The translations under genes and the position numbers were made by a program. Below are positions 37,904 to 59,119 of a stretch of 64,000 nucleotides of DNA, one piece after another. The stretch spans positions 62,001 to 126,000 of the forward strand of contig NZ_PYLQ01000003.1 of assembly GCF_003024685.1 (NCBI RefSeq), written 5' to 3'. The stretch's first letter is position 1. Every line of letters begins with the position of its first letter. The DNA comes from Faecalibacillus intestinalis (lineage in GTDB: Bacteria; Bacillota_I; Bacilli_A; Erysipelotrichales; Coprobacillaceae). The notes under the pieces were generated by a model. It was not told the DNA's origin and did no database searches. It worked only from the letters and a program-made list of their open reading frames with translations.

Positions 37904-38916
37904 ATGAGTATTACAATTACACAAATCGCAAAACTTGCAGGTGTTTCTAGAGGAACCGTTGATCGTGTTATTCATCAACGAGGACGCGTTGCTCCCGAAG
38001 TAGAAAAGAGAATACGTGATATTATGGATGAAAATGATTATCATCCAAATATGTTAGGAAGAGCTTTAGCTGTTTCTAAAACACCACTTACAATAGGAAT
38101 GATTATGATTGAAAAAGGAAATCCATTTTTTCAATTGATTCATTCAGGAATGAAAGAAGCAATCTCTCAATTTAGAGATTATCCAATTTTAGTTTATTTT
38201 AGACATATTAATGGTGTAGGCGAAGAAGAATATTTAAATGTACTTGATGAATTAGAAAATAACGTAAATGCTTTAATTATAGCGGGGTTACAAACAAAAC
38301 GTATTGTAGAAAAAGTAAATCAAATTGCAAAAAAATTTCTGTTATGACTTTAAATATTGATTTAGAAGATTCTTATAGAATAGGTTTTATTGGAATTGAT
38401 GATTATAAAGCAGGAACTTGTCTTGCAGGACTTGCGCATAATCTGACAAGATCAGGAGAAAATGTGTCGATTCTTTCTGGTTCAAAAACAATTCATTCAC
38501 AATCACAAAGAATCAATGGATTTCTTGATACAATGAAACAATATCCAGAAATTCTATTAAGTAATGTAATTTATACAGAAGATAAACTTGAAATATCAAA
38601 TAAACTTTTAAAAGAAATGCTTTCAAAGAAATACTATAAGACAATTGTCATGGTAGATTCATGGCTTGCAAATGCGGGAGAAGTTATAGCACAAACAGGT
38701 TATGATGATATCAATATTTTAGGATTTGACTTAATGCCACAAAATAAAGAAGCATTAAAACAGGGGAAAGTTACTTATATCATTGATCAAAGTGCTTATA
38801 TGCAAAGTTATGAATGTGTACATAAAGTATGCGAACATTTGATTTATGGAACAGAACTTCCAAAAGGAAAAAACTATCTTCCTATTCATATTTATAATAA
38901 ATATAATCTAGACTGA
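37904..38916 (+). pseudogene. LacI family transcriptional regulator, frameshifted
   Basis: The N-terminal part has the LacI helix-turn-helix in the variant form TITQIAKLAGVSRGTVDRVI followed by the sugar-binding domain (LTIGMIMIEKGNPFFQ). The frame ends at 38347. The rest of the effector domain (YRIGFIGIDDYKAGTCLAGL to the end) continues in another frame up to 38916. One more A in the A7 run at 38329-38335 would give a single protein of about 337 residues, normal for LacI. The regulator is likely off, or the base count is a sequencing artefact. GTVDR-type members commonly control sugar uptake. Confidence 0.85.
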
Positions 38917-39035
38917 TTCTTTAGGTTTTACAAAAGATGAAATTGGATTTTTATTCTTAAGAATTATTTGGACTTTTGACTTTATTAATTAGTAATTTTA
39001 TTTTAAAAGATTATAATGAAAAACATCATATTAAG
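38917..39035 (+). other. Probable remnant of a membrane protein gene
   Basis: Directly after the LacI gene, one frame reads SLGFTKDEIGFLFLRII and another reads a hydrophobic C-terminus ending LKDYNEKHHIK with a stop at 39035, just before a terminator. Together they look like the end of a decayed membrane protein. No family is recognised. The 443-bp gap before pucR otherwise holds only the terminator, dyads and a poly-G tract. Confidence 0.3.
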
Positions 39036-39067
39036 TAAGTAATCTGAAAAAGATTGCTTATTTTTTT
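39036..39067 (+). terminator. Rho-independent terminator
   Basis: TAAGTAATCT and AGATTGCTTA pair with one G-T pair, followed by seven T. Confidence 0.8.
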
Positions 39068-39144
39068 AATATCAACAAAAATCTATTTTTTGAACACAGT
39101 AGTTGTTTATGAGAAATTTTTTTCAGTTATTAAAAATAATTATA

Positions 39145-39259: not shown

Positions 39260-39289
39260 TTTACATTATGCATGGTCTATAAATACAAT
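39260..39289 (+). promoter_or_regulatory. Possible promoter of the PucR gene
   Basis: TTTACA (39260-39265) and TACAAT (39284-39289) are 18 bp apart and lie about 48 bp upstream of the poly-G tract. Confidence 0.5.
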
Positions 39290-39337: not shown

Positions 39338-39350
39338 GGGGGGGGGGGGG
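39338..39350 (+). repeat. Poly-G tract (13 G) at the ribosome binding site
   Basis: Thirteen consecutive G end nine bases before the ATG at 39360. The last G bases together with AG form GGGGAG, the only plausible Shine-Dalgarno element of the gene, seven bases from the ATG. In this AT-rich DNA no other comparable G run was noticed. Long G tracts are unstable in replication and are known contingency loci in other bacteria. A GTG reading through the tract meets TAG immediately before the ATG, so no fusion protein is made in this state. Confidence 0.85.
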
Positions 39351-39359
39351 AGAGAATAG

Positions 39360-41006
39360 ATGGTATTATTGGTACAAGAAATGAAAGATTTACAAAGAAA
39401 ATTCCATTTAAAACTGTTAAGTGAACAAAAAGGATTGGATAATGAAATAAAAGGTATTAAAATCATAGAAGTTGAAAATATGGAAAAGTACATAGAAGGA
39501 GGAGAAATACTTCTTACAAGTTTTTTCATATATGAAAGTTGTACAATTTCTCAGTATGAAACACATATACAAAATTTGATAGATAAAGGTGTATCTGGAT
39601 TTATTATAAAAAATAGTGGAAACATAAAAAATTTTAATATCAAACTAGATATACTTAAAAGATTATGTATTGAAAATGAGGTTGCCCTGTTTGAATTACT
39701 TCGACAAAATTATTATTGGGATATTATTAGATATATATTAGATAATGTTTTTGATCAAGAAATGGCATTATTAAAGTATCACAAAGTTACAAATGATAAC
39801 CTTAAAGAATATATTTTCCACAAGGAGGCAACACCTAAAAATATTATAGAGCTTCTTTATACAATAATTGATAATCCAATTTCAATGTATTATGAAAATT
39901 TGAGTTGTCTTGCTACAACATATGAAGAAAAAAGTAGTTTTGATTTATTAGATAACATTAAAGAATATAGTCCAGAGATAAGATTGAGGTATAATTATTT
40001 AAAACAAGATGCTGGAAAATATAATCAATATATTATACCTATTACTTTTATAGGAAATATACCTATTAAAATTGTGATTGATGAAAAAAATAGAAAGTTA
40101 ACAAATTTTGATTTTGTTGCGATTGAAAATGCGATTGATGCATTAAGGTATTCATTCACATTTGACTTTGCAAAAAACGAAATCCATAAAAAGTATCATC
40201 GAGATATTTTCTTTAATTTAGTAAATAGTCAGTTAAATTATGATGATACTACTGAAGCAGCCAATATGTTAAATCTTAAAGAGGATGCTTATTATCGAAT
40301 TGTATCATTTCATTCTATTTCAGAAGATCAAAAGGAAAAGTATTCTTTGGAACAATTAGATGAAGTTGACATTATTGCTAATGAAATATCAATGTTTTAT
40401 CCTAAAGAGCACATCTATAAAAATGTATCTCAAATTGTTATGTTACAAAAAATGGATTCTGATAAAGAGGATGATGCTAGTATAAGATGTTTAAATGAAC
40501 TGATAGATATTGTAAAAAAAAGTATCAGCAAAAGAGATCAAAACACAAATTTTAATGTTGGTGTAGGAGAAATCGTTAAAGGATATAGAAATTTAAAAAA
40601 CTCATATAAACAATCAAGAATAGCAATGAAATTTATGAAAATAGCTAGAAGGATTACTGGAGATATAAATAAATCAATTGTTTATTATTCAAAATTAGGA
40701 ATATTCCAATCCTTTATTGAATTGGATGACATAAATAAATTAAAAAAATATGTACCATGCACAATTACTAAACTTGATAATTATGATAGAAAACATAATA
40801 CAGAGTTATTACATACTTTAAATTCATACATAAGAAATAATTTAAGTGTCAAAAAGACATCTCTAGATTTAATGATTCAATATCGATCAGCTTCTTATCG
40901 CATTAAAAAGATAAAAGAGATTACAAATATTAATTTTGATGACAACATAGAATTACTTTCATTACGGAATGGATTAATCATTTTTGATATAATACATAAC
41001 ATGTAA
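39360..41006 (+). CDS. PucR/CdaR family transcriptional regulator
   Basis: The 548-residue protein has an N-terminal PucR-like sensor domain (residues ~5-125: KLLSEQKGLDNEIKGIKIIE, GGEILLTS, GVSGFIIK), a central CdaR GGDEF-like region (~180-400) and a C-terminal PucR helix-turn-helix (~480-548: TLNSYIRNNLSVKKTSLDLM then SASYRIKKIKEI). PucR proteins typically activate neighbouring genes in response to small metabolites. The start is set by the ATG next to the G13 tract. It is transcribed toward the first pilus operon, which begins 176 bp downstream after a terminator. Regulation of the pili by this protein is inference from position. Confidence 0.85.
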   Translation: MVLLVQEMKDLQRKFHLKLLSEQKGLDNEIKGIKIIEVENMEKYIEGGEILLTSFFIYESCTISQYETHIQNLIDKGVSGFIIKNSGNIKNFNIKLDILKRLCIENEVALFELLRQNYYWDIIRYILDNVFDQEMALLKYHKVTNDNLKEYIFHKEATPKNIIELLYTIIDNPISMYYENLSCLATTYEEKSSFDLLDNIKEYSPEIRLRYNYLKQDAGKYNQYIIPITFIGNIPIKIVIDEKNRKLTNFDFVAIENAIDALRYSFTFDFAKNEIHKKYHRDIFFNLVNSQLNYDDTTEAANMLNLKEDAYYRIVSFHSISEDQKEKYSLEQLDEVDIIANEISMFYPKEHIYKNVSQIVMLQKMDSDKEDDASIRCLNELIDIVKKSISKRDQNTNFNVGVGEIVKGYRNLKNSYKQSRIAMKFMKIARRITGDINKSIVYYSKLGIFQSFIELDDINKLKKYVPCTITKLDNYDRKHNTELLHTLNSYIRNNLSVKKTSLDLMIQYRSASYRIKKIKEITNINFDDNIELLSLRNGLIIFDIIHNM

Positions 41007-41007
41007 T

Positions 41008-41047
41008 AAAAAACAATGGACAAAAATATTGTTCGTTGTTTTTTATT
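41008..41047 (+). terminator. Rho-independent terminator after the PucR gene
   Basis: AAAAAACAA (41008-41016) pairs with TTGTTTTTT (41036-41044), with an inner ACAA/TTGT pairing. Confidence 0.75.
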
Positions 41048-41048
41048 A

Positions 41049-41127
41049 CACTAAATTGACAAAATAGCAGTAAAAGGTTTGCCTATTTAGTGCATTACTT
41101 TTTTTTCTTGTATGGACATACAATAAT
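41049..41127 (+). promoter_or_regulatory. Pilus operon 1 promoter region with conserved box
   Basis: The 16-mer CCTATTTAGTGCATTA (41082-41097) recurs almost unchanged upstream of pilus operon 2. A TACAAT -10 candidate lies at 41119-41124, with a poor -35 overlapping the box's right end, as expected for an activator-dependent promoter. CACTAAAT (41049-41056) is inverted as ATTTAGTG (41085-41092), the right arm lying inside the box. A second dyad TTGTATG-GA-CATACAA spans 41108-41123 over the -10. Confidence 0.6.
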
Positions 41128-41182: not shown

Positions 41183-41731
41183 ATGAATGAAACAAAACAA
41201 GAAATGAATAAGATTCAAGAAATAAAAAAGGTAAATAAATATTCATTCAAAAAAGATTTAATTTTTTTACTCCTTAAAATTTTATTAATAATTTGTGTAA
41301 TGTTTTTGATATTTTCATTTGTTTATGGCATTGCTAGAACGAATGATATATCGATGAAACCAGCAATTAAAGATAGTGATTTAGTTTTATACTATCGACT
41401 TGATAAAAACTTTGTTTCTGGAGATGTGGTCGTTTTTAAAAAGAATAATCGAATAATGATGTCAAGGGTAGTTGCAGTTGCAGGTGATCAGGTTGATATC
41501 ACTAAAGATGGTCTGATGATTAATGGAGCTGTTCAAATATCTCAAGATATTTATTCTGATACTACTCAGTTTAAAGATGGAACTGATTTTCCTCTTACAG
41601 TAGGACAAGGACAGGTTTTTGTATTAGGTGACAACAGGACTGTTGCTTCGGACAGTCGAATCTATGGGTGCCTTAACATCAATGATATTAAAGGCAAAGC
41701 CATAGCGGTTATTAGAACTAGAGGTATATAA
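41183..41731 (+). CDS. Signal peptidase I-like protein of pilus operon
   Basis: The 182-residue protein has one membrane segment (about 25-50) and signal peptidase I boxes: SMKP with Ser57, then VVAVAGD, and GDNRTVASDSRIYG near the C-terminus. At the position of the catalytic Lys (K-R-V-I-G in SipS) it has Ser94 (MSRVVAVAGD). A loss of the Lys general base suggests it is not a normal peptidase. In Streptococcus pyogenes the pilus-locus SipA also lacks catalytic residues and acts as a pilin assembly chaperone. It is first in a five-gene pilus operon. An alternative catalytic base cannot be excluded. Confidence 0.82.
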   Translation: MNETKQEMNKIQEIKKVNKYSFKKDLIFLLLKILLIICVMFLIFSFVYGIARTNDISMKPAIKDSDLVLYYRLDKNFVSGDVVVFKKNNRIMMSRVVAVAGDQVDITKDGLMINGAVQISQDIYSDTTQFKDGTDFPLTVGQGQVFVLGDNRTVASDSRIYGCLNINDIKGKAIAVIRTRGI

Positions 41732-41777
41732 ATAAAAGTTCTTTAATCATTAATCGAAAAACAGGGAGGACAAAAAA

Positions 41778-42920
41778 ATGAATATCAAACAATCGATTAA
41801 GAAAATACTTGCCTGTGCAACGGCAAGTGCAATGACATTATGCTTAACGATGCCAACTGCTTTTGCAGATGATACTACAAATAATGCTAAAGAAGCGTAT
41901 ATCAGTAAAACTTATAATACTGAAGTAGGAAAAGCTGAAACATTTAGTTTTACAGCAACACAAGTAACTGGGGAAGGACTTGTAAGTGATTCACTAAATC
42001 CTACAATGCCAAGTATTTCATTTACTGCTGATGAAACTGGAACAAAAACAAAGAGAGATAAAATTACATTTCCTGCTTTTAGTCAAGAAGGTAAATATGA
42101 ATATACAGTGACTGAATCACAAACTGCTAATCCAGCTGTAACAAATAATGAACATGAAAAAATGATCATGTCACAAGCTGAGTATAAGATGGACGTTTAT
42201 GTTTCAAATATTAATAATAAATATGAAATTAGAAAAATAATTGTAAACAAAACAAAAGACGATAAGGGTGTTATTGATAATGAAACTGGTAAAGTTGATA
42301 TAGGTAATAGTGATACAAATGGATTTAGTTTTACTAATACTTATGTTCAAGAAGCAGGTACTGGTACTGATCCTACTAATCCAGGTGAAGACTATGAAAA
42401 TTATGGTTCTTTAAAAGTAACAAAAACAGTAAATCCTAATGGAGGTACTATTAACACAAGTGCATCATTTAGATTCACCGCAAAATTTGATTTTCCTAAA
42501 GGAACTGACGCTAATACTTTAGGTAAAGTCAAAGGTAATGATATTGCAATTGAATTAGAAAATGGAAAATATGGATTTAATTTGAAACATGGTGAAAGCA
42601 TGACGTTTACTGGATTACCTGTTGGAACTACTATGACAGTATCAGAATCTAATACTCCAAATTACAAAGGAAGTGCCAGCTACGTTATTAATGGTGGTGA
42701 GTCCCAAAGTAAAACAGCTTCAAAATATAATGAATCTTTTGAGGTAGAAAATGAAAAATTAGGACAAAAGAAAAATACTGTAGATGTAACAAATACATAT
42801 AATAATGTACCAACTACAGGTATCATCATGAATACTTTACCATATGTTATGATGATTGCTTTAGGCGGAGTTGCATTATTAGGATATATTTATTTAAAAA
42901 ATAAAAAATATAGCGATTAA
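41778..42920 (+). CDS. Major pilin, Spy0128/FctA-type domains
   Basis: The 380-residue surface protein has a signal peptide ending AFA near residue 30 and two Spy0128/FctA-like Ig domains. Domain 1 (~35-190) has FSFTATQ, FPAFSQEGKYEYTVTE and FTNTY. Domain 2 (~205-340) has GSLKVTKTVNP, LKHGESMTFTGLPVGTTMTV and VTNTYN. Such domains carry internal Lys-Asn isopeptide bonds. The sorting signal is VPTTG at 344-348, then a hydrophobic segment and a basic tail. A strong ribosome site (GGGAGGAC) and a hairpin right after the gene suggest it is made in excess over the sortase, as expected for a shaft pilin. Confidence 0.88.
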   Translation: MNIKQSIKKILACATASAMTLCLTMPTAFADDTTNNAKEAYISKTYNTEVGKAETFSFTATQVTGEGLVSDSLNPTMPSISFTADETGTKTKRDKITFPAFSQEGKYEYTVTESQTANPAVTNNEHEKMIMSQAEYKMDVYVSNINNKYEIRKIIVNKTKDDKGVIDNETGKVDIGNSDTNGFSFTNTYVQEAGTGTDPTNPGEDYENYGSLKVTKTVNPNGGTINTSASFRFTAKFDFPKGTDANTLGKVKGNDIAIELENGKYGFNLKHGESMTFTGLPVGTTMTVSESNTPNYKGSASYVINGGESQSKTASKYNESFEVENEKLGQKKNTVDVTNTYNNVPTTGIIMNTLPYVMMIALGGVALLGYIYLKNKKYSD

Positions 42921-42929
42921 ATAAAATGA

Positions 42930-42965
42930 AGGGATGACAGTTTATTTAACTGCATCCCTCTTTTC
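42930..42965 (+). terminator. Intra-operon terminator/attenuator after the major pilin
   Basis: AGGGATG and CATCCCT plus CAGTT and AACTG form a long stem followed by CTTTTC. It lies between the pilin and sortase genes and probably lowers downstream expression. Confidence 0.75.
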
Positions 42966-42996
42966 AATATATACAATTAGGAAAGGAAGATAAGCA

Positions 42997-43881
42997 ATGG
43001 ATAAATTAAAAAAAATGATTAAAAATTTTATCCAAATAACTGATCATCTCGTAGATCTTATCGCTTTGATTCTTATTCTTTCAATGATGTCTTTATCTGG
43101 GTACATGTTATGGGACTCAAATCAGATATATGAAAAAGCTGATGCAAAAGTTTATGAACCTTACATGCCAACAAGAAATCATAGTAAATCTTTTAAAGAA
43201 CTACAACAAATTAATAATGATGTCATTGGGTGGCTAAAGGTAAATAATACGCATATTAATTATCCGCTCGTTCAATGTGAAAATGACGATAAATATATGA
43301 ATACGGATGTAGAAGGCAATTATTCATTAAGTGGATCTATTTTTTTACATGCAGAAAACAATCCGCATTTTACAGATTTCAATAATATTATTTATGGACA
43401 CCATATGGAAAAACATATGATGTTTGGAGACATTGGAGAATTTACTAATCAAAATTTTTTTAATAAACATCATTACGGAAATCTTTATTATGATGGCATA
43501 AATCATGGTATTGAATTTATTGCGATTATGCAATTGGATGCATATAACGAAAGAGCATTTAATGTCTGTATAAGTGAAGAAGCAAAACAGGAATATATCA
43601 AATTGATTGATAGTAATTCACTTTATAAAAGAAATGTACAAATAAGTCCAAATGATCATCTTGTTATTTTGACAACTTGTACTTCTGATATGACAAATGG
43701 ACGAAATGTTTTGGTAGGAAAGATAACAAATAAGACATATCCAGAAAAAATAAAAAAGAACAAAGGAATTGGAATTGATATTTTAAATAATAATACTTAT
43801 TTAGAATTGATATTAATACTAATTGCTTTGATAATTGCTGTTTTTGTTAAGAAAAGAAAAAATAATGGAAAGGAAGGATAG
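42997..43881 (+). CDS. Class B sortase (pilus polymerase)
   Basis: The 294-residue transpeptidase has an N-terminal membrane anchor (~18-38), the class B signature NTHINYPLVQCENDDKYM, catalytic His135 in IYGHHM, Cys228 in ILTTCTS and Arg236 in NGRNVLVG. A C-terminal hydrophobic helix (~262-285) and basic tail follow. In S. pyogenes a class B sortase (SrtC) next to sipA and a Spy0128 pilin polymerises the pilus, so the same job is likely here. It lies between the major and minor pilin genes. Confidence 0.92.
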   Translation: MDKLKKMIKNFIQITDHLVDLIALILILSMMSLSGYMLWDSNQIYEKADAKVYEPYMPTRNHSKSFKELQQINNDVIGWLKVNNTHINYPLVQCENDDKYMNTDVEGNYSLSGSIFLHAENNPHFTDFNNIIYGHHMEKHMMFGDIGEFTNQNFFNKHHYGNLYYDGINHGIEFIAIMQLDAYNERAFNVCISEEAKQEYIKLIDSNSLYKRNVQISPNDHLVILTTCTSDMTNGRNVLVGKITNKTYPEKIKKNKGIGIDILNNNTYLELILILIALIIAVFVKKRKNNGKEG

Positions 43882-43882
43882 T

Positions 43883-44545
43883 ATGAAAAAAATAATGTGT
43901 TCAACTCATTATAAAAAAGTAATTTTACTATTTTTCGCAATTTTTGGATTTATGATTATGATATTAAATAATCAAAATCCTATATATGCTTTGCAAAATG
44001 ACCATACTGTTTTAATACCCATAAAACAAGTACTTGATACAAATGACAAAGATAATAGTGTGGAGTTTACATATGTTCTGAAGGCGGAAAAAAGTGGAAG
44101 TCCTATGCCAGCAAATAGTGAGGGTAAGGAATATAAATGGATAATGAGAAATGATTCTCATGTTAATTTAACCATAAATGTCAATCAAGAGGGATCATTC
44201 AACTATAAAATATATCAAGAAACAAAAGACATAAATAGTTATGTTATTGATCATCATATTTATTCATTATGTATTAAAGCAAATAATGATAACAATGATT
44301 TGATTACGATTACAACCGTAACAAATGAAAATGGTGAGAAAGTGGAAAATGTTACTTTTAAAAATCAATTTAAATCATTTGATACAGATACACAAAATAA
44401 AGAATTATATATGTTAAAAAATAAAATAAAAACAGGAGATTCTTATTTGACAGGAAGTTATATGTGTATGTTTCTTGTTTCAAGTGTTATTTTGATTCTA
44501 TTTATAATAAAGTTTTCAAATAAGAAGAAAGGAGATGTTAAATAA
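43883..44545 (+). CDS. Minor pilin, Spy0128/FctA-like, IKTGD sorting signal
   Basis: The 220-residue protein has a signal peptide or anchor (~12-37, ending IYA), one FctA-like domain (LIPIKQVLDTNDKDNSVEFT, VEFTYVLKAEKSG, FNYKIYQET, VTFKNQF), and a C-terminal sorting region: IKTGD at 182-186, hydrophobic segment, KKKGDVK tail. The motif lacks the usual Pro. The ATG at 43883 is preferred because AAGGAAGG lies five bases upstream. The stop overlaps the next start (TAATG). Its size and place match the FctB-type anchor pilin of streptococcal loci. Confidence 0.75.
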   Translation: MKKIMCSTHYKKVILLFFAIFGFMIMILNNQNPIYALQNDHTVLIPIKQVLDTNDKDNSVEFTYVLKAEKSGSPMPANSEGKEYKWIMRNDSHVNLTINVNQEGSFNYKIYQETKDINSYVIDHHIYSLCIKANNDNNDLITITTVTNENGEKVENVTFKNQFKSFDTDTQNKELYMLKNKIKTGDSYLTGSYMCMFLVSSVILILFIIKFSNKKKGDVK

Positions 44546-47298
44546 TGTTGAATAAGATACAACAAAAACATTTAAAAGTGATTTGCATCTTCTTTTTGAC
44601 TTTTACACTCGTTTTTTCTATGTTTAAAACAGTTTATGCAGATAATGTTGATGTTTTGAATGCTCCAGAGACTGTCAGTGTTCAAACTTTAGAAAATGAA
44701 CTTAAAACAGCAACAAACGAAACAAATACAGATCGAGTAAAATATGTCGATGTAAAAGGAAATCCTATTGAAAATGCACCGACAACAATTCCATTTGGAA
44801 CGATTTCCGACCATAAAGATTTAAAAATCACAGGAAAGAATTATGAATTCAAAAGTGCAAAAGTAAATGATAAGGATTGCGTTTACATAGGAAAATATGA
44901 AAACACAATTTATTACAGTACAGATGGAAATATTGCTATTAAACTCGAAGATGATCAAAAACTTATCATGACCTATCAGGAATACTATAATATTACAGTT
45001 AAAGAAGATATCCCAGAAGGTGGAGTTGCTGGAACGATTACTACAAAAGAAGGAACATTGGATACTTCAAAAACCGTACGTGTAAATGCTGGAGATGATT
45101 TGAATATTACGGTTACACCGGCAGTAGTAAATAAAATAAGATATAAAATTTCTTCGGTTGAATCACAAAATAATTCAACAATCAATAGAAGTTCTGGAGA
45201 TGAATATGGAGCAGCATATACAATTCAATTTCAAAAAGATGATGTAATAACAATTGCTTATAGTAGAGAAGGAGTCTATCGTGTAACGATAAATAAAACA
45301 GCAAATGATGGAACAAAATATCTAAATGAAGAACATAGCAAGGATGCACTGAATTTTACTTTTACAGAAAAGGATTTGGATGCTGACGGTGCAATTAGAA
45401 TACCAGTTATTCATACAAAAAGAGGATATCGTTTAATAAATATGGCGATAAATGGTACAACTTTAGCAGAAACAACAGACAACCATAGAGAAATTCCAAC
45501 TGAAAAAGGGATTGGTCATGGGATAACAATGGATGCAAATTGTGGTAACACGTCTTATCTTGTAACCGTGGTGATGGAGAATAGTTATACTACGAATTTT
45601 GGTGATGAAAAAAATTGTTCTTACGCATACTCTATTAAAGTGAAACCTAGAAGAGGAAGCTGGCAGGATATAAATTTAAATCTGGTTCCGTATGCAATAG
45701 GGGAACAAGTATTAACTGCAAAACTATATACAGATGGACATAGAAGTGGTGATGGACTAGATGTGGCAATGTGGAATCCTGACACTAAAAAACTGGATCC
45801 GATTCAAGACAGTGACACAGTAAATATGGATTCTGTTGGAAGTGGCGCTGAAACACTTCATAAAAGACAAGTAAGAATTTTTTTCGCGAAAAGTAAAAAC
45901 GGATATTCATCTCCTATTGGAGCTTATAAGGCATTTGCGAATGAGGGCTCAACAGGTGGAAAAGTAATTGCGGAAACAGGAAAGGTTGCTCAGTTATCAG
46001 CTACCACAATGGGGGAAACAGGTACTCTTGAAATTTATGATAAGATATGGCAAGAGGCAAAAAATGCTGCACAGGCTGCAGGATATACGGAATATGTAGC
46101 ATTTGCAGGAGAAAAGACACTCAATACGGATTGGGAAATGTATGTAGTGAGTTTTACAACGGCTGGAATAGATTATTATGTACATTATAAATCAGGACTG
46201 GAAGATGATTTAGATGTTAGTAATATTCCGGATAACCAGGAATTATACCATAAAATACCAATGCATTCCTATGGCAATAATCCGTCAACAGCCAAAGGAG
46301 GAAGAAAAATAGGTGTATCCTTTACAGTAGGAGAAGGCAATGAGGAACCGACTTGTAGTGGATATGAGTTTTTAGGATGGAAATTACAGAAAAAAGATGG
46401 AACGCTAAGTAATGAAACTTATCAAAATAAAGATGTATTTACGGTTTCGTTGGATAATATTGAATTTGCCGATAATATAAATCTTCCTTTTTGTTCAAGA
46501 AATAATGAGAAAGGTTATCAATTCGTTGCACAATGGAAGAAAATAGGAAGCAGGAATGTTATTGTTAATCATTATTTGAAGACACCTGATGGAAATGAAA
46601 AACTCAAAAAGACAACAGAGGGGTCAATTACATTTGCTGAAGATAATGAAACAGTAACGGCAATTTCTATTCCTGAAAATGATGGAACTTTTCCGGGCTA
46701 TGTCTTTGATAAGGATGATACTCGAAATGAATTAGAAAAAGAAGTTACTAATGATGACTCAACTGAAACGATTAAATTGAATCTTTATTATAAGCCTACT
46801 ACATTGACGATAAAAAAATCAGTTGAAGGATATATTTTAGATGAAAATAAATCCTACAACTTTATTATAAAAGCTACTCCTCCCTCAAATGATTCAGGAA
46901 AAAGCTTAGATTCTGCAGATATTTATATAGGTCAAGATAAAAAAATTACTTTTACAAACAATCAAGCAACATTTGCTTTGAAAAAAGATGAATCAATTAA
47001 TTTAAACTGTTTACCAATAAAGTGGACTTATACAATTACTGAATCAGATCCTGGCTCTAATTTTAAAGTTTATTATAAGCTTAATGATAGTTCAAAATCC
47101 GAAGGAAAAACTGTAGATTGCATTATGGATAATACAGGTAAGATGACGGTTGAGTTTATTAATACTTCAACAATCGCACCACCAGAAACAGGAATTTCAT
47201 CTAATGAAAAAGAATATTTAGCTATGATGATTGTAGGTTTAGTTTTATGTTTTGTTATGTTGTTCTATTTAAAAAATGTAAAAAGAAAGAAAATGTAA
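44545..47298 (+). CDS. Large pilus-associated adhesin, PPETG anchored
   Basis: The 917-residue surface protein has a signal peptide ending VYA at about residue 32. Beta-rich modules include an InlB-type repeat-like region (~600-680: GYEFLGWKL then QFVAQWKK), a MucBP-like segment (~690-755: VIVNHYLKTPDGNEKLKKT) and a final FctA/DUF7601-like domain (~760-870: TLTIKKSVEGYILDENKS). The sorting signal is PPETG at 879-883, then a hydrophobic segment and KRKKM. Position after the class B sortase and minor pilin suggests a tip adhesin, like Cpa. Base use between about 45700 and 46550 looks less AT-rich than its neighbours. Confidence 0.8.
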   Translation: MLNKIQQKHLKVICIFFLTFTLVFSMFKTVYADNVDVLNAPETVSVQTLENELKTATNETNTDRVKYVDVKGNPIENAPTTIPFGTISDHKDLKITGKNYEFKSAKVNDKDCVYIGKYENTIYYSTDGNIAIKLEDDQKLIMTYQEYYNITVKEDIPEGGVAGTITTKEGTLDTSKTVRVNAGDDLNITVTPAVVNKIRYKISSVESQNNSTINRSSGDEYGAAYTIQFQKDDVITIAYSREGVYRVTINKTANDGTKYLNEEHSKDALNFTFTEKDLDADGAIRIPVIHTKRGYRLINMAINGTTLAETTDNHREIPTEKGIGHGITMDANCGNTSYLVTVVMENSYTTNFGDEKNCSYAYSIKVKPRRGSWQDINLNLVPYAIGEQVLTAKLYTDGHRSGDGLDVAMWNPDTKKLDPIQDSDTVNMDSVGSGAETLHKRQVRIFFAKSKNGYSSPIGAYKAFANEGSTGGKVIAETGKVAQLSATTMGETGTLEIYDKIWQEAKNAAQAAGYTEYVAFAGEKTLNTDWEMYVVSFTTAGIDYYVHYKSGLEDDLDVSNIPDNQELYHKIPMHSYGNNPSTAKGGRKIGVSFTVGEGNEEPTCSGYEFLGWKLQKKDGTLSNETYQNKDVFTVSLDNIEFADNINLPFCSRNNEKGYQFVAQWKKIGSRNVIVNHYLKTPDGNEKLKKTTEGSITFAEDNETVTAISIPENDGTFPGYVFDKDDTRNELEKEVTNDDSTETIKLNLYYKPTTLTIKKSVEGYILDENKSYNFIIKATPPSNDSGKSLDSADIYIGQDKKITFTNNQATFALKKDESINLNCLPIKWTYTITESDPGSNFKVYYKLNDSSKSEGKTVDCIMDNTGKMTVEFINTSTIAPPETGISSNEKEYLAMMIVGLVLCFVMLFYLKNVKRKKM

Positions 47299-47333: not shown

Positions 47334-48737
47334 ATGCAATTAACAAGTACAACAGATTATGCTATTCGAATTATAAGTTATCTTACTGAAAAAAACGGAA
47401 GTGCTTCAGCTAATGAATTATCGGATGAACTTAATATACCAAATAGTTATATTCCAAAAATAATAAAAAATTTAAAAAATAATCATTTGATTAATGCAAC
47501 AGAAGGCATGAAGGGAGGTTATTCATTAGCAAAATCTTCCGATGAAATCAGTTTATATGATGTCATATCTTCGACAGAGGTGACAATGGCAATAAATAAA
47601 TGTTTAGAAACCAATGGTGTGTGTTCAAGAAATTGTATTGGTACATGTCGAATAAGAAAAATACTATTTAATTTACAAACATCATTTAATTATAAACTTC
47701 AAAGTATAACATTTAGAAATATATTAAATGATGAAAGTAAACAAAATCAGTATCTTTTGTTAAAAATTGATTTAAATACAGAAAAAATAGAAATTATTAA
47801 TAGAAATAACATCGATTATGATTTTCTTGACGATATTAAAATATATACAGAGTTCGTGACTGAATTTCTTAAGCAATGTGTTTGTAGAGAAGATAAATTT
47901 TTAGTTAAAGATTTTTTACTAAAATCAATAAACGATAATTTTGATTATCAAGATATTGATATCAGATTTAAAACAAATAATAATTCATGTATGAATATCA
48001 ATAAACACATCAACCAAAATATTATGTTTCTTACGTTTAAAATAGCAAATATTTTTACAACAATTGATACTAGAATTAATAGGTCTTCTTCAGAACAAAA
48101 TGATATGATTGAAAATGAATTTTGGAATATGATTTCATTGTTGGAACTAGTGTTGGCTCATAATAAACTGGAAGAACCTCAAAGTATTCATAATATTTCT
48201 TATTTCACTGAACAGATTTATAAAGAGGTGCAATTAAATTATCCCAAATTAAATATATCAGATGAAGAAATAGAAAATGTTTCTAAACTAGCAACTATTC
48301 ATGATATTGGTAAACTTTTCACACCATATGAAATTCTTAATAAAAAAGGTAAACTAACAAAAGATGAAATGGATATTATAAAAAAGCATCCTTTAAACGG
48401 TGCAAACATGGCATTAAAACTTCCTAAATGCGGAAAAGCAAGTAAACTTGTCCAATATGCATATAATATTTGTTTGTATCATCATGAAAGATATGACGGC
48501 CAAGGATATCCTAAAGGACTTATTGGTGATGAAATTCCTCTTTGTGCACAAGTAGTTGGACTAGCTGATGCCTATGATGCATTAATCAGTGAACGTCCAT
48601 ATAAAAGAAAAATTAATCATGGTGAGGCTGTGAGAATGATTGTTAATGGTGAGTGTGGAAGTTTTTCACCAAAAGTTATTCTTTCGTTTATTATTGCTTC
48701 TATGAATAAAACGTGGATTGAAAAAGTAAGTAAATAA
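47334..48737 (+). CDS. Rrf2-like DNA-binding domain fused to HD-GYP domain
   Basis: The 467-residue protein starts with an Rrf2-type winged helix (MQLTSTTDYAIRIISYLTEK, then SYIPKIIKNL and GGYSLAK) and a cysteine cluster at C90, C97, C101 and C105, where IscR/NsrR-type proteins bind an Fe-S cluster. Residues ~137-245 are a possible degenerate PAS-like region. The C-terminal domain (~265-467) is HD-GYP: candidate first His286, HD at 323-324 (HDIGK), His352, HHE at 383-385, DGQGYP at 388-393 and ADAYDAL. HD-GYP enzymes hydrolyse cyclic di-GMP or related dinucleotides. No signal peptide is present. It lies between the two pilus operons. A repressor or activator responsive to both redox/Fe-S state and cyclic dinucleotide is inferred. 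Confidence 0.85.
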   Translation: MQLTSTTDYAIRIISYLTEKNGSASANELSDELNIPNSYIPKIIKNLKNNHLINATEGMKGGYSLAKSSDEISLYDVISSTEVTMAINKCLETNGVCSRNCIGTCRIRKILFNLQTSFNYKLQSITFRNILNDESKQNQYLLLKIDLNTEKIEIINRNNIDYDFLDDIKIYTEFVTEFLKQCVCREDKFLVKDFLLKSINDNFDYQDIDIRFKTNNNSCMNINKHINQNIMFLTFKIANIFTTIDTRINRSSSEQNDMIENEFWNMISLLELVLAHNKLEEPQSIHNISYFTEQIYKEVQLNYPKLNISDEEIENVSKLATIHDIGKLFTPYEILNKKGKLTKDEMDIIKKHPLNGANMALKLPKCGKASKLVQYAYNICLYHHERYDGQGYPKGLIGDEIPLCAQVVGLADAYDALISERPYKRKINHGEAVRMIVNGECGSFSPKVILSFIIASMNKTWIEKVSK

Positions 48738-49031: not shown

Positions 49032-52000
49032 GTGATTTGTTTGTTAAACAAAATTAAAAAAATAATTTGTATAGACATAATGGTTTGGGTATGTGTTATC
49101 TCTTTGTTTTTACAAACTGTTGTTGTCTATGCGTTAAATTCATCTGATGATTCAATTTCAAAGGAAACTATTGTTGAAAATAACACAAGCTCACAATCAG
49201 ATGATTCAATAGATATCAGTGATATTTATGAAAATAATGTAATAAAAATTTATAATACAAAACAGCTTCAAGCAATTGGCTCAAATTCAATTGTTACATC
49301 TACAGATAATGATGAAAGTAATTACGGTACTGGTCAACAAATTTCAGTAAATGATGAATATATAACATATTCTCTTTCTTCCAAGTATCAACTTATGAAA
49401 GATATTTCATTAAATGGAAATGACATATGGACTTTACCAAGCAACTTTACAGGCACATTTAATCATGGAACTGTAGATGAAAATTCAACATTGTATGATT
49501 CATCAACAGATACAATCTATATTTATAATGATTATCAATTAAAAATTATTCAATCGGATAATTCTGAAAATGAACCTGTCATGTCTCAAGATATGTTACC
49601 AGAGTGTGTTGGGATGGGACAACCTGTTTATTCAGATAATAGTTCTAATTATCTAACTTATAGCAAATCACATAACTATGTGTTATCGAAAAACTTTACA
49701 GGTGAGATGCCAGAAACTAAAGCAAATCAAATATCAAATATAAGTACTGAAAATTGTGAAGGACGAGATTTTAATGGTCAAGTTGTTAAAACGATTGGTG
49801 ACAAAACTTATATTCTTATAGGCAATGAAGAACAGTTACGAAAAATAGGATCTGATGAAACTGTTTATGGTGCAGTTTATCAAGTTTATTTACATGCTGC
49901 CAATTGGTATGTAGATGAAGATGAAAATGGTAATCCGATAATGCTATATGGTGGAGATGCTGATTTAAAAAAATCTCAAAATGGTAATGCAAATTTTGAA
50001 TTTGGAAAAAATAATATACATGATAAGGATAAAAAACAAAGTAAATATAGTTTGTATCCATATGTATGGGGAAGATGTGGAGTCAATCAATCTACTGGTG
50101 AAATTGATCCAACATTGGATATAGATAAAGCTACCAATCAAAAATATTCAACAAATGCTAATTACATTATCTTTAGAAATATTGATTTATCTAGTGATAA
50201 TTGGACACCGTTGATGTTTCAAGGAACAATGATTGGTTCAAAGGGCGATGGTAAATCAACGTTATGGAATAATGATACTAGCGTTATCGATTATAGCAAA
50301 GCGACTGATTTAAATATAGGAGAAAAGCCTGTTATTTCTAATGTGAATGTTAGTCAAACATCTGAGTTGGATGTTGGAAAGCAAATGGGAGTTGGTTTCT
50401 TTGCTACATTATCAAACGAAGCAAGTAGTAGTGATTTGGGATTAAGTAAAGGAACTGTAACTGTAAAAAATCTTAAATTCAATAATATAACTGTTGATAA
50501 TGAAACAACAAAAACAAAATTTGATCAAACGTTAATAAATGGATTAATTAGAACTTTAGGATCAACATTAGGAGCACTATTAGATGGATTAACATGGTTA
50601 CTTACTTTTGGAAGTGTTGATGCTGGATTAACAAAAACACTCAGCAGTATTTTAAATGCTCGTAAGAATGACCCAACAGCTTTAGCTACGGGATGTTTTG
50701 CAGGTCGTGTAGTGGGGGATGTAGCAATATCTGACTGTGAACTGGATGATGTGAAAGTAACAAATGTCAATAGTAATACAGGTGGATTTATTGGATATAT
50801 TTCAGGAAAGACGGAGTATGATGGTTTATCAAAAGGATTAGGTGGAACGGCTACTCTATTGGCAAAAATTTTAAATGTGATTCCTGGTCTTGGCTTAGGT
50901 GATTTGATTACTATTCTTTTAGGAAACGCTATTCCAGTAGATAAATTGATTCCTACAAAGTATATCAATGCCTATGTTGAAAATTGTTCAATCAATAATT
51001 TAACAGGAAATATAGGAACAAATAATGATAAGATTGAAAATTCTGGTGGATTTATCGGTCAACAAAAAGGAACTGTCGTAAAAGATTGCCAAATTACAAA
51101 CAGCAACTTCAATGTCAAAGCTAATAATTATAGTGGCGGATTTGTAGGATTAGCTAGAGATGATGTCATAGAAGGTACCTTATCGGGTGCTTTAGATATA
51201 GAAACTCAATTGCCTAAAATGAATCCTGAAAATTTGTTTTTAAATTGTTCAGTATCTGCGAGTGATTTGACAATTTCGGGCAATGGATATCAAGGTGGTT
51301 TTGCTGGAGCAATGGCCAACACGTCGGCTATAAATTGTAATGTTAATGTTAGTGATAAATTAACGGTATCTTCCGGTGGAGATAATTCTGGTGGCTTTGC
51401 TGGAATCGCAACAATTGGATGGGTTGCTGATTTAGGAAAAGGTGATACGAAAGATAACTTATTAGGTGGAGTTGTTGACTTAGTTGTGAAACTTTTAAGC
51501 AGTAATCAAAATGCAACATCATCATTACTTTCTCTTGCTGGTGTGAGTCCTTCTCATATATTAGGATGTCAAATAAATGCTCCATGCAGTGTTGAAGGAA
51601 AAAATTACACAGGTGGATTGATAGGCAGAGGTGATGGTGTTTATCTTACAAAATCTAATACCGATAATTTAAATAAGGTTTCATATTTTAAAAATAATAT
51701 CTTTTCAATGGATGGAATCGAAGAAAAAAATATCATTATTAATGGTTTGAAATCCGTGGATGGTGAAAATTGTGTTGGTGGTATTTCTGGCTCAGTGGGA
51801 ACAGCAAGTGTAGCAGGACTTTTAAATACAACTTTAGGTGTTGCAGAATATTTAGGATTTAATGCTAATTCTATTTCACTTACTGGTTCTACAGAAGGTA
51901 TAACTATTGGTGGTAAAGGAAAAAGAGTTGGTGGTGCTTTTGGTGAAGCAATCGGTGGTTCTATTAGTTCGGTTACAGTAACAAATTTAAATAATATTTC

Positions 52001-55000
52001 AGGAGAAAATATTGTAGGTGGATTTATAGGCGTATCTGGTCCAGGTGATCTTGCAGGAACTGATAATGGTTTGACAGTAAATCTTTTAGGATTAAATTAT
52101 ATTTTAAAATTAAGCAATCTTCTTTCTTTGGGACAAGCAGTTGAAGTCAATATAGATTCTTCGTCTGTAAGTGGTATTAATTCTGGATTTACTGTAGAAG
52201 CTACGGGATCAAGAGAAGATAATTCAACAACTGATTATGTAGCAGCTGGATTTGTTGCTAAAAGTAATAGTACAAAAATAAATGATGCAAAAGTTAATAA
52301 TTTGAAAACAGTAACTTCTACAGATGATGGAGGTTACTCTGGCGGATTTATTGGTATTTCAAAAACAGGCGGTTTAGCTGAAGTTGGAGATGAAACGGAA
52401 ATAAAAAAATTGATTTCGGCTAATGGATTATTAAATGCTGTAGGATATTTAATTCCGTCATATCAACAATGTTATGTAAGTTATGTAGATAATGGTGGTG
52501 TACGAGGAGATATTGCAGGAGGATTTGTTGGAGATTTCCAAAGTGGTATTGTAGAAAATGATGAAAATAATGCTTATGCAATACAAAATATTTCATATGT
52601 TAAAGGAAAAACTTATGCAGGGGGCTTCGGTGGAAAGGTTTATTCTGGAGCTTTAGCAGATTCAACAAAAGGAATAAGTATTTTAGGCGGTTTAGCAGAT
52701 TTGAATATTCAAATCTCTGATTTATTGAGTTTAATACAGGTTTATATTCCTATTATTAAAAATGCTGGTGTTCAATCTAATGGATTGGTCGTTAGCTGTG
52801 ATACATATAAGTCAACGGATTTAAATTCAGGTAGTGCTGGCGGATATATAGGTTATGGTAGTGCTGTAAGAGTTTCTAATAGTAGTGTAACTAAGTTAAA
52901 ACATACAACAGTAAAAACACCTAATGCAAATATTAATGATACAGACAGTTCTTCTTATTTTGGAGAGTCTTCAAGTTATGCCATTTCAGCACCTAAAAAT
53001 GCTGGAGGCTATGTAGGAAAATTAGATATAGGTTCTACGGCATCTGTTGGTGGTGGATTGAAGGCATTGGGAACAAATATAAATTTGGCAAATATTTTAT
53101 CTGCGTTAGATGTAACAGCTTCTAAAATTGAAAATTCAGATGTAACTGGTGCGGTTGGTGGTTTTTCTGTTAAAGCAAATGGTTTGGCTGAAAATAAAAC
53201 AATTGGTAATGCAGGTGGCTTTGTTGGAACTGATTATGGTTCACAAATTCAAAATAGTAATGTCAATAATTTCTCTTACATCATAGGTCAAGAAACTGCT
53301 GGTGGTTATGCAGGAAATATTCAACCAGGAAGTGTTGCAGATGTATTAGGTAAAACGGAAATCTTAAAAGGATTAATTTCAGTAGATAGTTTAACAAGTG
53401 TTCTACAATCATTTATTCCTATGATTTATAACTCTCAAACTACTTGTATTCCTTGTGGTGGAGCAGTTCGTGCAGATGCCATAAGCAATGAATCATTAAG
53501 AGGATGTGCAGGTGGTTATGTAGGATATAACCTTGGTGGGCGTATTGAAGGTAATTCTACAAGAAAATGGAATGGTGAAATACCTACAGTTCAAAAAGAA
53601 TGTGCAGTCTATAGATTAAGAGCTGTTTATGGATATGAATATGCTGGAGGATTTAGTGGCAGAACGGATTGTGCCAATACAGTTGATACGGGAAATATCA
53701 GTGTTCTTTATGGACTCATTAATTTAGATAATCCATTATCAGCTTTGAGTGCTGTTTATCCAACTGAAACGAATACAGCAACTTATGGACCACTTCGAGG
53801 TTTAACAACTGAAGTATGGAATTCTTGGGTAAAAGCAGTAGGAGTAAATGGTGCTTATGGTAAAAAATTCCAAGAACTTGGAGAAGTTGATAATCAAGAC
53901 GAGTTAGATAAAATTATTGATCAATATGCCTATGGCTATGAAGTAAAAGCTGGAAGAACAAATGCTGGTTCAAACGATTATCAAGGCGGCATTGCTGGTG
54001 GTTATGTTGGTCAAATGAATGGAGGAGAAGTAACTTTTGCTAATGCTAGAGATTTAAAAGATGTTACAGCTTTAAAAAGCAGTGGAGGTTTTGCTGGTGA
54101 AATGATTTCAGCCGGAGTTGCGAATGTTGGAGATGTAAACTTAGAAAAGAAATTAAATGTGGTAGGCTCACTTCCAATATTGCAAAGTTTCATTCCTGTG
54201 GTAAAAACTTCGTCTGTTATAGGTTATCAATCAGGAGCAACAATATCTACTACTGGAACTGATTTTGATAATGATGAAGGAAACAGTGGTGGATTTGTTG
54301 GAAAAGTTGTTGGTGGAAAAATAGAAGGAACACAAGATCAATATTGTTTGGCTGATCAATTAAAAGTAATCAACGGTAGTCAAAATGTCGGTGGCTTTGC
54401 TGGTAATATTCAACCAGGAAGTGCTGTGACTTTGAATACTTCATCCAATACAGGATTATTATCAAAACTGCTTAAGTATTTATTAGGCAATGCAGGAGAT
54501 CTTGCCAAAGTATTGAATGCAACTCTTTCAATAGTTGACTATGCTAAGGTGGATGCATGGAATGATTATGGATTAAGTGTTAACGGTTCATATACATTAG
54601 AAAACGATGAAACTACAAAGTATGCAAAACAAGTAGGTGGTTTTGTAGGTAATGCGGGAGGAGCAATTTTTGGTGATAAAGATGCAACTTCAGTGAGAGT
54701 TGAGGTAAATAATATTAGAAATGTTGTTGGTGGAAGAGATGTTGGTGGGTTCTTTGGATTGGCGGATGTTTCTTCTGTTGCTCAAGTTGGAAATGATGAT
54801 TCTGATCAAATTCTAAATCTGATTAAATTAGGAAATATTGATGTATTAGATGCCTTTAGAACTTATGTTTATCAAGCAAAAGTAACTGGATCAAATGATA
54901 ATGGACTTTCAGTATGTGCAAATGATGAAAGTCAGGAAGGAACATTGGACAGTAAAGTACAGACAGGAAATGCAGGTGGATTTGGTGGAAGCTTGCTAGA

Positions 55001-56771
55001 TGGTTCAATAAAAAATTCGAGTGTTACTGGATTAAATAAAGTCAAAGCTAAAAACTATGCCGGTGGTTTTGTTGGTCACATGGGAAAGAGTGGTGTGGTT
55101 GATCTAGATGAAGCTGGTGTTGGTACAGGAAAATTATTAAATGCCACAGCTGGTGTCTTAGATATTTTTGGTTCTCATAGTGACAACTGTTCAGTTATTG
55201 GTATTCCAGTTGGATTTACTATTTCAAGTGAAAGTGGTAAGGAACCTATTTCTGGTGGTTTTGTTGGTTATGCTGATTTAGGAAGAATGAGCAATTGCAA
55301 TGTAGAAAACATAAAGAAAGTGGCTAGTGATCAAATAGCAGGAGGCTTTGTTGGTAAAACAAGTTTTGAATATTTAGCTAATATTGACTTAGGTTCTAGC
55401 TATTTATTGGATCCGATACTTTCAATCGTCAATAAACTTCTAGATATTCTATATGTGGGAGATTTAGAAAATGTTGGCCTTATAGATATCAATTTAGGTT
55501 CACTATTAAAATTACAAGTTTTAGCTAAAGGAAATGCTTTATCAGTTACTTTGTTAGGATTAACTATTTCAGTAGCACTTGATAAAGATAGAGGAGATGG
55601 AACAAGTGACCTGGCAAAAATAACAATTGGTGATTCTTATATAGAAATCCCATGTTCAAATATTGATGGAAATCATATTGCTGACAGTGAGAAAGAAAAT
55701 ATTAAAGTAGGACTTATCAAATCAAACAGAACAAAAGTAGATGGATGCTCGATAACAGGTATTCATGATGGATATGATGTTTTTGGTGGAAAAGCAAATG
55801 ATTCACATGATGGAAGTGAAGAAAATGGTCAAGCAGGTGGATTTATTGGTTATAACAATGAAGGATTGATTGAAAACAATGAAATGTATTTAGCTGATAC
55901 GATTAGAGGAACAAGTAATCAAATAGGACCTTTTTCTGGAACAACGTCTTTAAATTCTAGTTATGACTTTAATACAAAGAAGAATATTGAAGGTAAAGAT
56001 AATACGTACAGGATTTATAGAACAAGGAGTGATTCCTTGATTGATATTATAAAAAATTCATCTTTGTATAGTAAAAAGGATTCAGATTTTGATAATTGGA
56101 ATGTCTTCAAAATAAGCCATTATGATAAGGTACAAAAATATGATGACTTAAAAGATGCCAAATTAGCAAATGAAACAGAAAGTGAAACCGTTGATTTAAA
56201 TGCCTATGTCTCTCCAGCAAAAGCTGTATTGATGGATGATACAGAAGTATCTGATAACGAAGAAGGTACGACACCTGTCCCTTCAGATACACAAGATCCT
56301 TGCAATGAAAAAGTAAACATTACTATCAATAAGCTATGGAAAGATTTAAGTGATAAACAAAAAGAACGTCCAGATACGATTACAGTGACGTTAACAAGAA
56401 CATATATGAAAGGAAGTGATGAAATATCAGAGAAAGTAGGGGATTATACTTTATCAACTAATGATGTAACTGATTCTAAAAACACTTGGCAAACAATTAT
56501 TAAAGGATTAGATGCCTATACAACATTAGATGATGGAAGTAAAGCTTATTATACTTATTCAGTTACAGAGTCCGAAGTAGAAAATTATATAACGTCTATT
56601 GAAGAATCTGATGATGGATATACGTTTACGATAACAAATAAAGATATGCCTCTTTTACCAAACTTAGGTGGAAAAGGAACAATGTTATTTGTTTTAGTAG
56701 GTATAGTAGGTGTATTAGCAGTTTTGTTATCGTACAAAAAAAGTAAAAAAGCGAATAATATTAAAGAATAG
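49032..56771 (+). CDS. Giant repeat-rich surface adhesin with CnaB-like end
   Basis: The 2579-residue protein has a hydrophobic signal segment (~15-36, ending VYA). Most of it (residues ~550-2350) is a long array of about thirty short GG[FY]-[VIA]-G turns, GLUG-like, that alternate with about fifteen hydrophobic inserts such as LISVDSLTSVLQSFIPMIY. This suggests a beta-solenoid stalk. Near the C-terminus is a CnaB-like domain (~2425-2535: INKLWKDLSDKQKERPDTIT, YYTYSVTESEVENY, FTITNK), then LPNLGG at 2542-2547, a hydrophobic segment and KKSKKANNIKE. The sorting motif has Leu where Thr is expected. The start is GTG 49032 or TTG 49041. Both have AGGAAG/AAGGTGA upstream. First gene of pilus operon 2 and probable tip adhesin. 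Confidence 0.85.
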   Translation: MICLLNKIKKIICIDIMVWVCVISLFLQTVVVYALNSSDDSISKETIVENNTSSQSDDSIDISDIYENNVIKIYNTKQLQAIGSNSIVTSTDNDESNYGTGQQISVNDEYITYSLSSKYQLMKDISLNGNDIWTLPSNFTGTFNHGTVDENSTLYDSSTDTIYIYNDYQLKIIQSDNSENEPVMSQDMLPECVGMGQPVYSDNSSNYLTYSKSHNYVLSKNFTGEMPETKANQISNISTENCEGRDFNGQVVKTIGDKTYILIGNEEQLRKIGSDETVYGAVYQVYLHAANWYVDEDENGNPIMLYGGDADLKKSQNGNANFEFGKNNIHDKDKKQSKYSLYPYVWGRCGVNQSTGEIDPTLDIDKATNQKYSTNANYIIFRNIDLSSDNWTPLMFQGTMIGSKGDGKSTLWNNDTSVIDYSKATDLNIGEKPVISNVNVSQTSELDVGKQMGVGFFATLSNEASSSDLGLSKGTVTVKNLKFNNITVDNETTKTKFDQTLINGLIRTLGSTLGALLDGLTWLLTFGSVDAGLTKTLSSILNARKNDPTALATGCFAGRVVGDVAISDCELDDVKVTNVNSNTGGFIGYISGKTEYDGLSKGLGGTATLLAKILNVIPGLGLGDLITILLGNAIPVDKLIPTKYINAYVENCSINNLTGNIGTNNDKIENSGGFIGQQKGTVVKDCQITNSNFNVKANNYSGGFVGLARDDVIEGTLSGALDIETQLPKMNPENLFLNCSVSASDLTISGNGYQGGFAGAMANTSAINCNVNVSDKLTVSSGGDNSGGFAGIATIGWVADLGKGDTKDNLLGGVVDLVVKLLSSNQNATSSLLSLAGVSPSHILGCQINAPCSVEGKNYTGGLIGRGDGVYLTKSNTDNLNKVSYFKNNIFSMDGIEEKNIIINGLKSVDGENCVGGISGSVGTASVAGLLNTTLGVAEYLGFNANSISLTGSTEGITIGGKGKRVGGAFGEAIGGSISSVTVTNLNNISGENIVGGFIGVSGPGDLAGTDNGLTVNLLGLNYILKLSNLLSLGQAVEVNIDSSSVSGINSGFTVEATGSREDNSTTDYVAAGFVAKSNSTKINDAKVNNLKTVTSTDDGGYSGGFIGISKTGGLAEVGDETEIKKLISANGLLNAVGYLIPSYQQCYVSYVDNGGVRGDIAGGFVGDFQSGIVENDENNAYAIQNISYVKGKTYAGGFGGKVYSGALADSTKGISILGGLADLNIQISDLLSLIQVYIPIIKNAGVQSNGLVVSCDTYKSTDLNSGSAGGYIGYGSAVRVSNSSVTKLKHTTVKTPNANINDTDSSSYFGESSSYAISAPKNAGGYVGKLDIGSTASVGGGLKALGTNINLANILSALDVTASKIENSDVTGAVGGFSVKANGLAENKTIGNAGGFVGTDYGSQIQNSNVNNFSYIIGQETAGGYAGNIQPGSVADVLGKTEILKGLISVDSLTSVLQSFIPMIYNSQTTCIPCGGAVRADAISNESLRGCAGGYVGYNLGGRIEGNSTRKWNGEIPTVQKECAVYRLRAVYGYEYAGGFSGRTDCANTVDTGNISVLYGLINLDNPLSALSAVYPTETNTATYGPLRGLTTEVWNSWVKAVGVNGAYGKKFQELGEVDNQDELDKIIDQYAYGYEVKAGRTNAGSNDYQGGIAGGYVGQMNGGEVTFANARDLKDVTALKSSGGFAGEMISAGVANVGDVNLEKKLNVVGSLPILQSFIPVVKTSSVIGYQSGATISTTGTDFDNDEGNSGGFVGKVVGGKIEGTQDQYCLADQLKVINGSQNVGGFAGNIQPGSAVTLNTSSNTGLLSKLLKYLLGNAGDLAKVLNATLSIVDYAKVDAWNDYGLSVNGSYTLENDETTKYAKQVGGFVGNAGGAIFGDKDATSVRVEVNNIRNVVGGRDVGGFFGLADVSSVAQVGNDDSDQILNLIKLGNIDVLDAFRTYVYQAKVTGSNDNGLSVCANDESQEGTLDSKVQTGNAGGFGGSLLDGSIKNSSVTGLNKVKAKNYAGGFVGHMGKSGVVDLDEAGVGTGKLLNATAGVLDIFGSHSDNCSVIGIPVGFTISSESGKEPISGGFVGYADLGRMSNCNVENIKKVASDQIAGGFVGKTSFEYLANIDLGSSYLLDPILSIVNKLLDILYVGDLENVGLIDINLGSLLKLQVLAKGNALSVTLLGLTISVALDKDRGDGTSDLAKITIGDSYIEIPCSNIDGNHIADSEKENIKVGLIKSNRTKVDGCSITGIHDGYDVFGGKANDSHDGSEENGQAGGFIGYNNEGLIENNEMYLADTIRGTSNQIGPFSGTTSLNSSYDFNTKKNIEGKDNTYRIYRTRSDSLIDIIKNSSLYSKKDSDFDNWNVFKISHYDKVQKYDDLKDAKLANETESETVDLNAYVSPAKAVLMDDTEVSDNEEGTTPVPSDTQDPCNEKVNITINKLWKDLSDKQKERPDTITVTLTRTYMKGSDEISEKVGDYTLSTNDVTDSKNTWQTIIKGLDAYTTLDDGSKAYYTYSVTESEVENYITSIEESDDGYTFTITNKDMPLLPNLGGKGTMLFVLVGIVGVLAVLLSYKKSKKANNIKE

Positions 56772-56783
56772 AGGAATATGAAA

Positions 56784-58229: not shown

Positions 58230-58268
58230 TTGAAATATTAATTAAGATCTCTCATAGATATTAAATGT

Positions 58269-59118: not shown

Positions 59119-59119
59119 C

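Follow-up and report, generated by a model that had tools for sequence, protein, structure and literature searches.

A run of 13 consecutive G residues stands in the place of the Shine-Dalgarno (SD) sequence of a gene for a PucR-type transcription regulator (pucR) in the gut bacterium Faecalibacillus intestinalis. The window, the stretch of 64,000 nucleotides that was analysed, comes from contig NZ_PYLQ01000003.1, and coordinates refer to it unless a locus handle is given. We consider the chances about even that the run is a slippage-prone repeat that has taken the place of the pucR SD sequence and whose length gives graded PucR levels across a population. The elements at the centre of the argument are the following.

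39338..39350, plus strand: run of 13 G in the SD place (direct reading; genome expectation about 0.0003).
39349..39352, plus strand: GGAG core, retained at any tract length (sequence, anti-SD pairing model, F. faecis comparison).
39357..39359, plus strand: TAG stop in the pucR frame, abutting the ATG on the 3′ side of the tract (three-frame translation).
39360..41006, plus strand: PucR-type transcription regulator of 548 amino acids (Pfam PucR, GGDEF_2, HTH_30).

Direct reading confirmed the position and the length of the tract given in a first-pass annotation of this DNA. The run is followed by AGAGAATAG and then by the ATG at 39360. Its 3′ end lies nine bases from the ATG and the GGAG core at its 3′ edge lies 7 nucleotides from it, which is the correct SD spacing and bears out the earlier assignment of the tract to the regulator's SD position. 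No other run of at least 7 G is present in the window (7 overlapping matches compared to 0.52 expected). Pattern searches of the whole genome (2.79 Mb in 53 contigs) returned 12 such runs: three of 7, four of 8, one of 9, three of 10 and one of 13 residues. Under a first-order model with the composition of the window, the five runs of at least 9 G (9, 10, 10, 10 and 13) compare to 0.4 expected, and the single run of at least 13 G to about 0.0003. The pucR tract is the longest of the five, and it is a homopolymer of sufficient length for slippage that far exceeds chance. The figure of 13 is the value of one assembly and may represent the consensus of a mixture or be wrong by a base or two.

The downstream open reading frame (ORF) had been called a PucR-type regulator, and profile searches agree. 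Its product matches PF07905 (PucR, E = 4e-15), HTH_30 (E = 8e-10) and GGDEF_2 (E = 2e-6) of Pfam, with the N-terminal PucR domain and the C-terminal HTH_30 domain above the Pfam cut-offs; a match to the NCBIfam AdeR model is far under the cut-off of that model. The only close ortholog is found in Faecalibacillus faecis SNUG30370 (Coprobacillaceae, Erysipelotrichales), a member of the same genus, and the regulator is absent from the rest of the 43 genomes searched in the family at E ≤ 1e-20. The F. faecis protein shares 53% identity with that of the window and likewise opens with MVL, which supports the start at 39360. An internal start at ATG 39381, served by a promoter inside the ORF (TGG-TATTAT, 13 nucleotides past the tract), was rejected because F. 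faecis keeps the MVL and the same start. The leader of the F. faecis gene reads AAAAGGAG-CAATTT-ATG, an ordinary SD sequence without a G run. Judging from this pair of leaders, the G run occupies the place of the relative's ordinary ribosome-binding site, in a comparison of two genomes that cannot tell which of the two states is ancestral.

The geometry of the leader restricts what a change in tract length could do. As the in-frame TAG lies between the tract and the ATG, nothing upstream can be fused to PucR at any number of G residues, and switching by frame fusion is impossible at pucR. Placement of the tract in a promoter spacer was also rejected: no −35/−10 pair flanks it at 15–20 nucleotides and no −10-like hexamer is present within 0–4 nucleotides. 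The routes left for a length effect are initiation, mRNA structure or mRNA level only.

Combining these observations, we propose the following model. Slippage of the DNA polymerase may give rise to cells that differ in the number of G residues. This number would influence the efficiency with which ribosomes start on pucR, most likely because RNA folding, for instance into a G-quadruplex, masks or exposes the GGAG core; alternatively, a factor that binds the G run could alter pucR initiation. The resulting graded levels of PucR across the population would then act on the targets of PucR, for which the neighbouring pilus genes are the leading candidates.

Four known systems provide points of comparison. 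In the pilus loci of Bifidobacterium breve UCC2003 (bbr_0113 and bbr_1889), slippage of G11/G12 tracts was shown by deep sequencing, and the same paper notes G tracts within promoter spacers (PMC9187656). This organism, too, is a gut commensal in which a G run of similar length is found near sortase-dependent pili; its tract, however, lies inside the first pilus gene and switches it by frame fusion, whereas the pucR tract lies in the initiation region of a regulator. The length of a G run in the 5′ untranslated region (UTR) of Mycobacterium tuberculosis espR alters the translation efficiency of a transcription regulator (PMC11898584), drawing a parallel to pucR, although at pucR the run is itself the SD sequence. 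The leader of Helicobacter pylori tlpB-hp0102 contains a variable G run (6–16 tested) that mediates graded control (PMC8295292); the pucR tract likewise lies in a putative mRNA leader, but tlpB is controlled via the small RNA RepG with its C/U-rich loop, and no such RNA is known for pucR. Finally, a tract upstream of the ORF of Moraxella catarrhalis uspA1 gives graded expression that depends on G number at the mRNA level (PMC7302503). Its location is akin to that of the pucR tract, but uspA1 is an adhesin gene affected at the level of mRNA, not a regulator carrying the repeat in its ribosome-binding site.

The literature searched, which left out most subscription literature, contained no case of a repeat that is itself the SD sequence of a regulator and no report of such G-tract switching in Erysipelotrichales; the only match to a search for phase variation and Faecalibacillus concerned crAss-like phages. 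If the model is correct, the repertoire of G-tract phase variation gains a form in which the SD sequence itself tunes translation initiation of a regulator, and G-tract switching extends to gut bacteria of Erysipelotrichales. Placed under this kind of control, a single regulator could generate diversity across its entire regulon in one step.

Several observations weigh against this model. The anti-SD pairing energy calculated with ViennaRNA plateaus at 8 G and is flat from 8 to 16 G, and the distance from the GGAG core to the ATG is constant at all tract lengths, which makes altered SD pairing or spacing unlikely. The first-pass annotation had suggested that length tunes translation through structure or ribosome-site pairing; the pairing part of this suggestion is weakened, and the proposed mechanism is plausible once narrowed to effects on initiation or mRNA level. 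In the ViennaRNA model, a two-layer G-quadruplex is possible from 11 G and a three-layer one from 15 G, and the threshold at 11 or more G is the only predicted effect of length; the quadruplex energies of the program are generous, and this threshold is a prediction only. The tract is not conserved, the sole ortholog being without it, and no other tract length at the pucR locus emerged when genome contigs, viral contigs and plasmids were scanned for related loci or the pattern. Lastly, a neutral expansion of a G-rich SD sequence would look identical.

Such an expansion, in which slippage has lengthened the pucR SD sequence without a selected switching role, tract length drifts and PucR output barely changes, is a possibility of some weight, though on balance we think it unlikely. 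SD sequences are among the few places in AT-rich Firmicutes where selection keeps short G runs, and both the indifference of pairing and spacing to every length above 8 and the tract-free F. faecis ortholog are what neutral drift would produce. Another G run of the window genome resides in a decayed gene, where it is hardly useful: an azlC-like gene (L025:4233-4911) is broken by an out-of-frame G9 plus a further in-frame TGA. Because of its second stop and its decay, this gene was rejected as proof of slippage. The distribution of long G runs, however, is non-random, and this argues against neutrality: in the family, promoter spacers contain more of them than the controls predict, and in the order several genes for regulators have such a run in front of them.

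The family-level enrichment was derived from extracted tracts of at least nine G, 52 of which could be scored, with shifted positions as controls. A −10-like hexamer is present 0–4 nucleotides downstream in 16 of the 52 (5.7 expected), and 11 tracts of G9–G12 are bracketed by −35-like and −10-like hexamers (1.7 expected, control maximum 4); in most of these 11 the −35 element is an exact TTGACA. Classifiable genes downstream of the family tracts include those of surface-type proteins, transporters and signalling proteins. In the window genome, a G10 occupies the promoter spacer of a GGDEF-EAL gene (TTGAAA-N18-TAAAAT; L022, G000:C34:154967-154976), and the homologous F. faecis gene carries a G9 at the same promoter place (L100, G001:C44:90414-90422). 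This is the only sign that tract length can differ at one and the same locus, albeit in a comparison of two species, and the GGDEF-EAL gene, which belongs to cyclic di-GMP (c-di-GMP) signalling, is likely to be phase-variable.

Across the order, matches to G9-N(4-10)-ATG are roughly threefold commoner than matches to the reversed pattern; these are counts of overlapping matches, the excess is partly due to −10 boxes whose last bases are ATG and is inflated by a single G run at a contig end. The arrangement seen at pucR recurs: runs of G9–G10 stand directly before the canonical starts of genes for an OmpR-type response regulator, a TetR regulator, a MATE transporter, an XRE regulator and a Rep_3 initiator. 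The XRE gene has an ordinary AAGGAGGTGCAAT site in a sibling species, the same contrast as at pucR, and the ortholog of the TetR gene with the G10 site is absent from its sibling species. A wider proposal would be that Erysipelotrichales possess a recurrent contingency ribosome-binding site, in which SD sequences of regulators (PucR, OmpR-type, TetR and XRE) have become slipping G runs whose length sets translation, perhaps with a G-quadruplex threshold near 11 G, and which would give heritable, graded regulator levels in gut commensals. We put this forward tentatively and regard it as rather doubtful.

Tract length could also act on transcription or mRNA level, if RNA polymerase slipped or paused, if the decay of the mRNA changed, or if a C/U-rich small RNA bound the G run in the manner of RepG on tlpB. 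The predicted transcription signals around pucR are the following.

39033..39068, plus strand: hairpin followed by a T run (terminator-like), after a split LacI-type gene and upstream of pucR (fold −13.6 kcal/mol).
39260..39289, plus strand: best promoter-like match upstream of pucR, TTTACA-N18-TACAAT (weak; matches in the region are no commoner than in shuffles).
41002..41050, plus strand: terminator-like stem of 22 bp that separates pucR from the pilus operon (fold −24.1 kcal/mol, z −8.0).

As the terminator-like hairpins upstream and downstream close it off, pucR is probably a transcription unit of its own, going by the predicted folds. The promoter-like match would probably place the tract in a 5′ UTR of about 60 nucleotides, a location compatible with control at the mRNA level, and at uspA1 and tlpB mRNA levels do depend on G number. 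We nevertheless consider this alternative quite improbable, as no −10/−35 pair flanks the pucR tract, unlike the promoter class of the family, and Rfam contains no relevant RNA family match at the locus, where no search for a small RNA was made.

The LacI-type regulator gene that precedes the upstream hairpin (37904-38916) consists of two overlapping ORFs, split beside a run of seven A (about 38329-38335); it could be a pseudogene, a case of A-run slippage or a sequencing error.

Two further explanations of the tract are very improbable. The first is that a very short upstream frame, which starts at GTG 39336, crosses the tract and stops at TAG 39357, undergoes translation and is coupled to pucR only at those numbers of G residues that keep it in the TAG frame: with 13 G, this frame (GTG, four GGG codons, AGA, GAA and TAG) ends exactly at the ATG, but its GTG has no SD sequence and borrows its last base from the tract, and no ATG or TTG opens the frame further upstream. 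The second is an assembly artefact, in which the real run is much shorter or its length is meaningless: homopolymers are error-prone, G tracts disturb Illumina reads (PMC9187656) and the adjacent LacI-type gene is split near an A run, but the tract lies within a contig of 210 kb and is flanked by ordinary sequence, the gene requires a ribosome-binding site at just this position, and the conclusion would survive a miscount by one or two G.

Returning to the model of graded PucR levels, its presumed targets lie immediately downstream.

41183..47298, plus strand: sortase/pilin-type cluster with a signal peptidase, a DUF7601 pilin-like protein, a class B sortase and a 917-amino-acid surface protein (presumed PucR target by neighbourhood).

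A second sortase/pilin gene cluster occupies 49032-59848, in agreement with the earlier description of two pilus operons next to the regulator. The 22-bp terminator-like hairpin between pucR and the pilus operon speaks against co-transcription, and F. faecis keeps pucR while a relative of the 917-amino-acid pilus protein was not found in its genome; pucR is thus neither evidently co-transcribed nor consistently linked with the pilus genes. The sortase of F. faecis is only 32% identical and located elsewhere. Control of the pili by PucR in trans is possible, as suggested by the neighbourhood of the genes. Between the two clusters, a gene at 47334-48737 encodes an unusual fusion of an Rrf2 DNA-binding domain to a C-terminal HD (HD_5) phosphodiesterase-like domain; it is another candidate regulator.

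Other G runs in the genome, the family and the order display features of their own. In addition, a frameshift around codon 85 breaks the F. faecis GGDEF-EAL gene in two. In the window genome, a G10 (L023:2421-2430) is located 10 bp before the extended −10 element TGC-TATAAT of a LytTR response regulator gene. Eight Coprobacillaceae promoters (L087, L095, L096, L097, L101, L106, L115 and L116) combine a TTGACA-type −35 element, a G9–G12 spacer tract and a −10 element directly after it, and several precede surface-type genes (LRR/DUF285, F5/8 type C, Listeria-Bacteroides repeat). The flanks of the family tracts are non-random: C precedes 34 of the 52, despite its scarcity in these AT-rich genomes, and TA follows 30. 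Capsule-type NDP-sugar epimerase genes (Polysacc_synt_2) in two genomes of one genus (L119 and L121) carry a G10 at the 5′ end, a few codons past an ATG, a typical placement for frame switching. Lastly, locus L089 (G010:C3:6494-7941) contains four G9 runs about 470–500 bp apart, each 59–67 bp ahead of an ORF of 116–139 amino acids, and resembles an array of small genes that share a G-run element.
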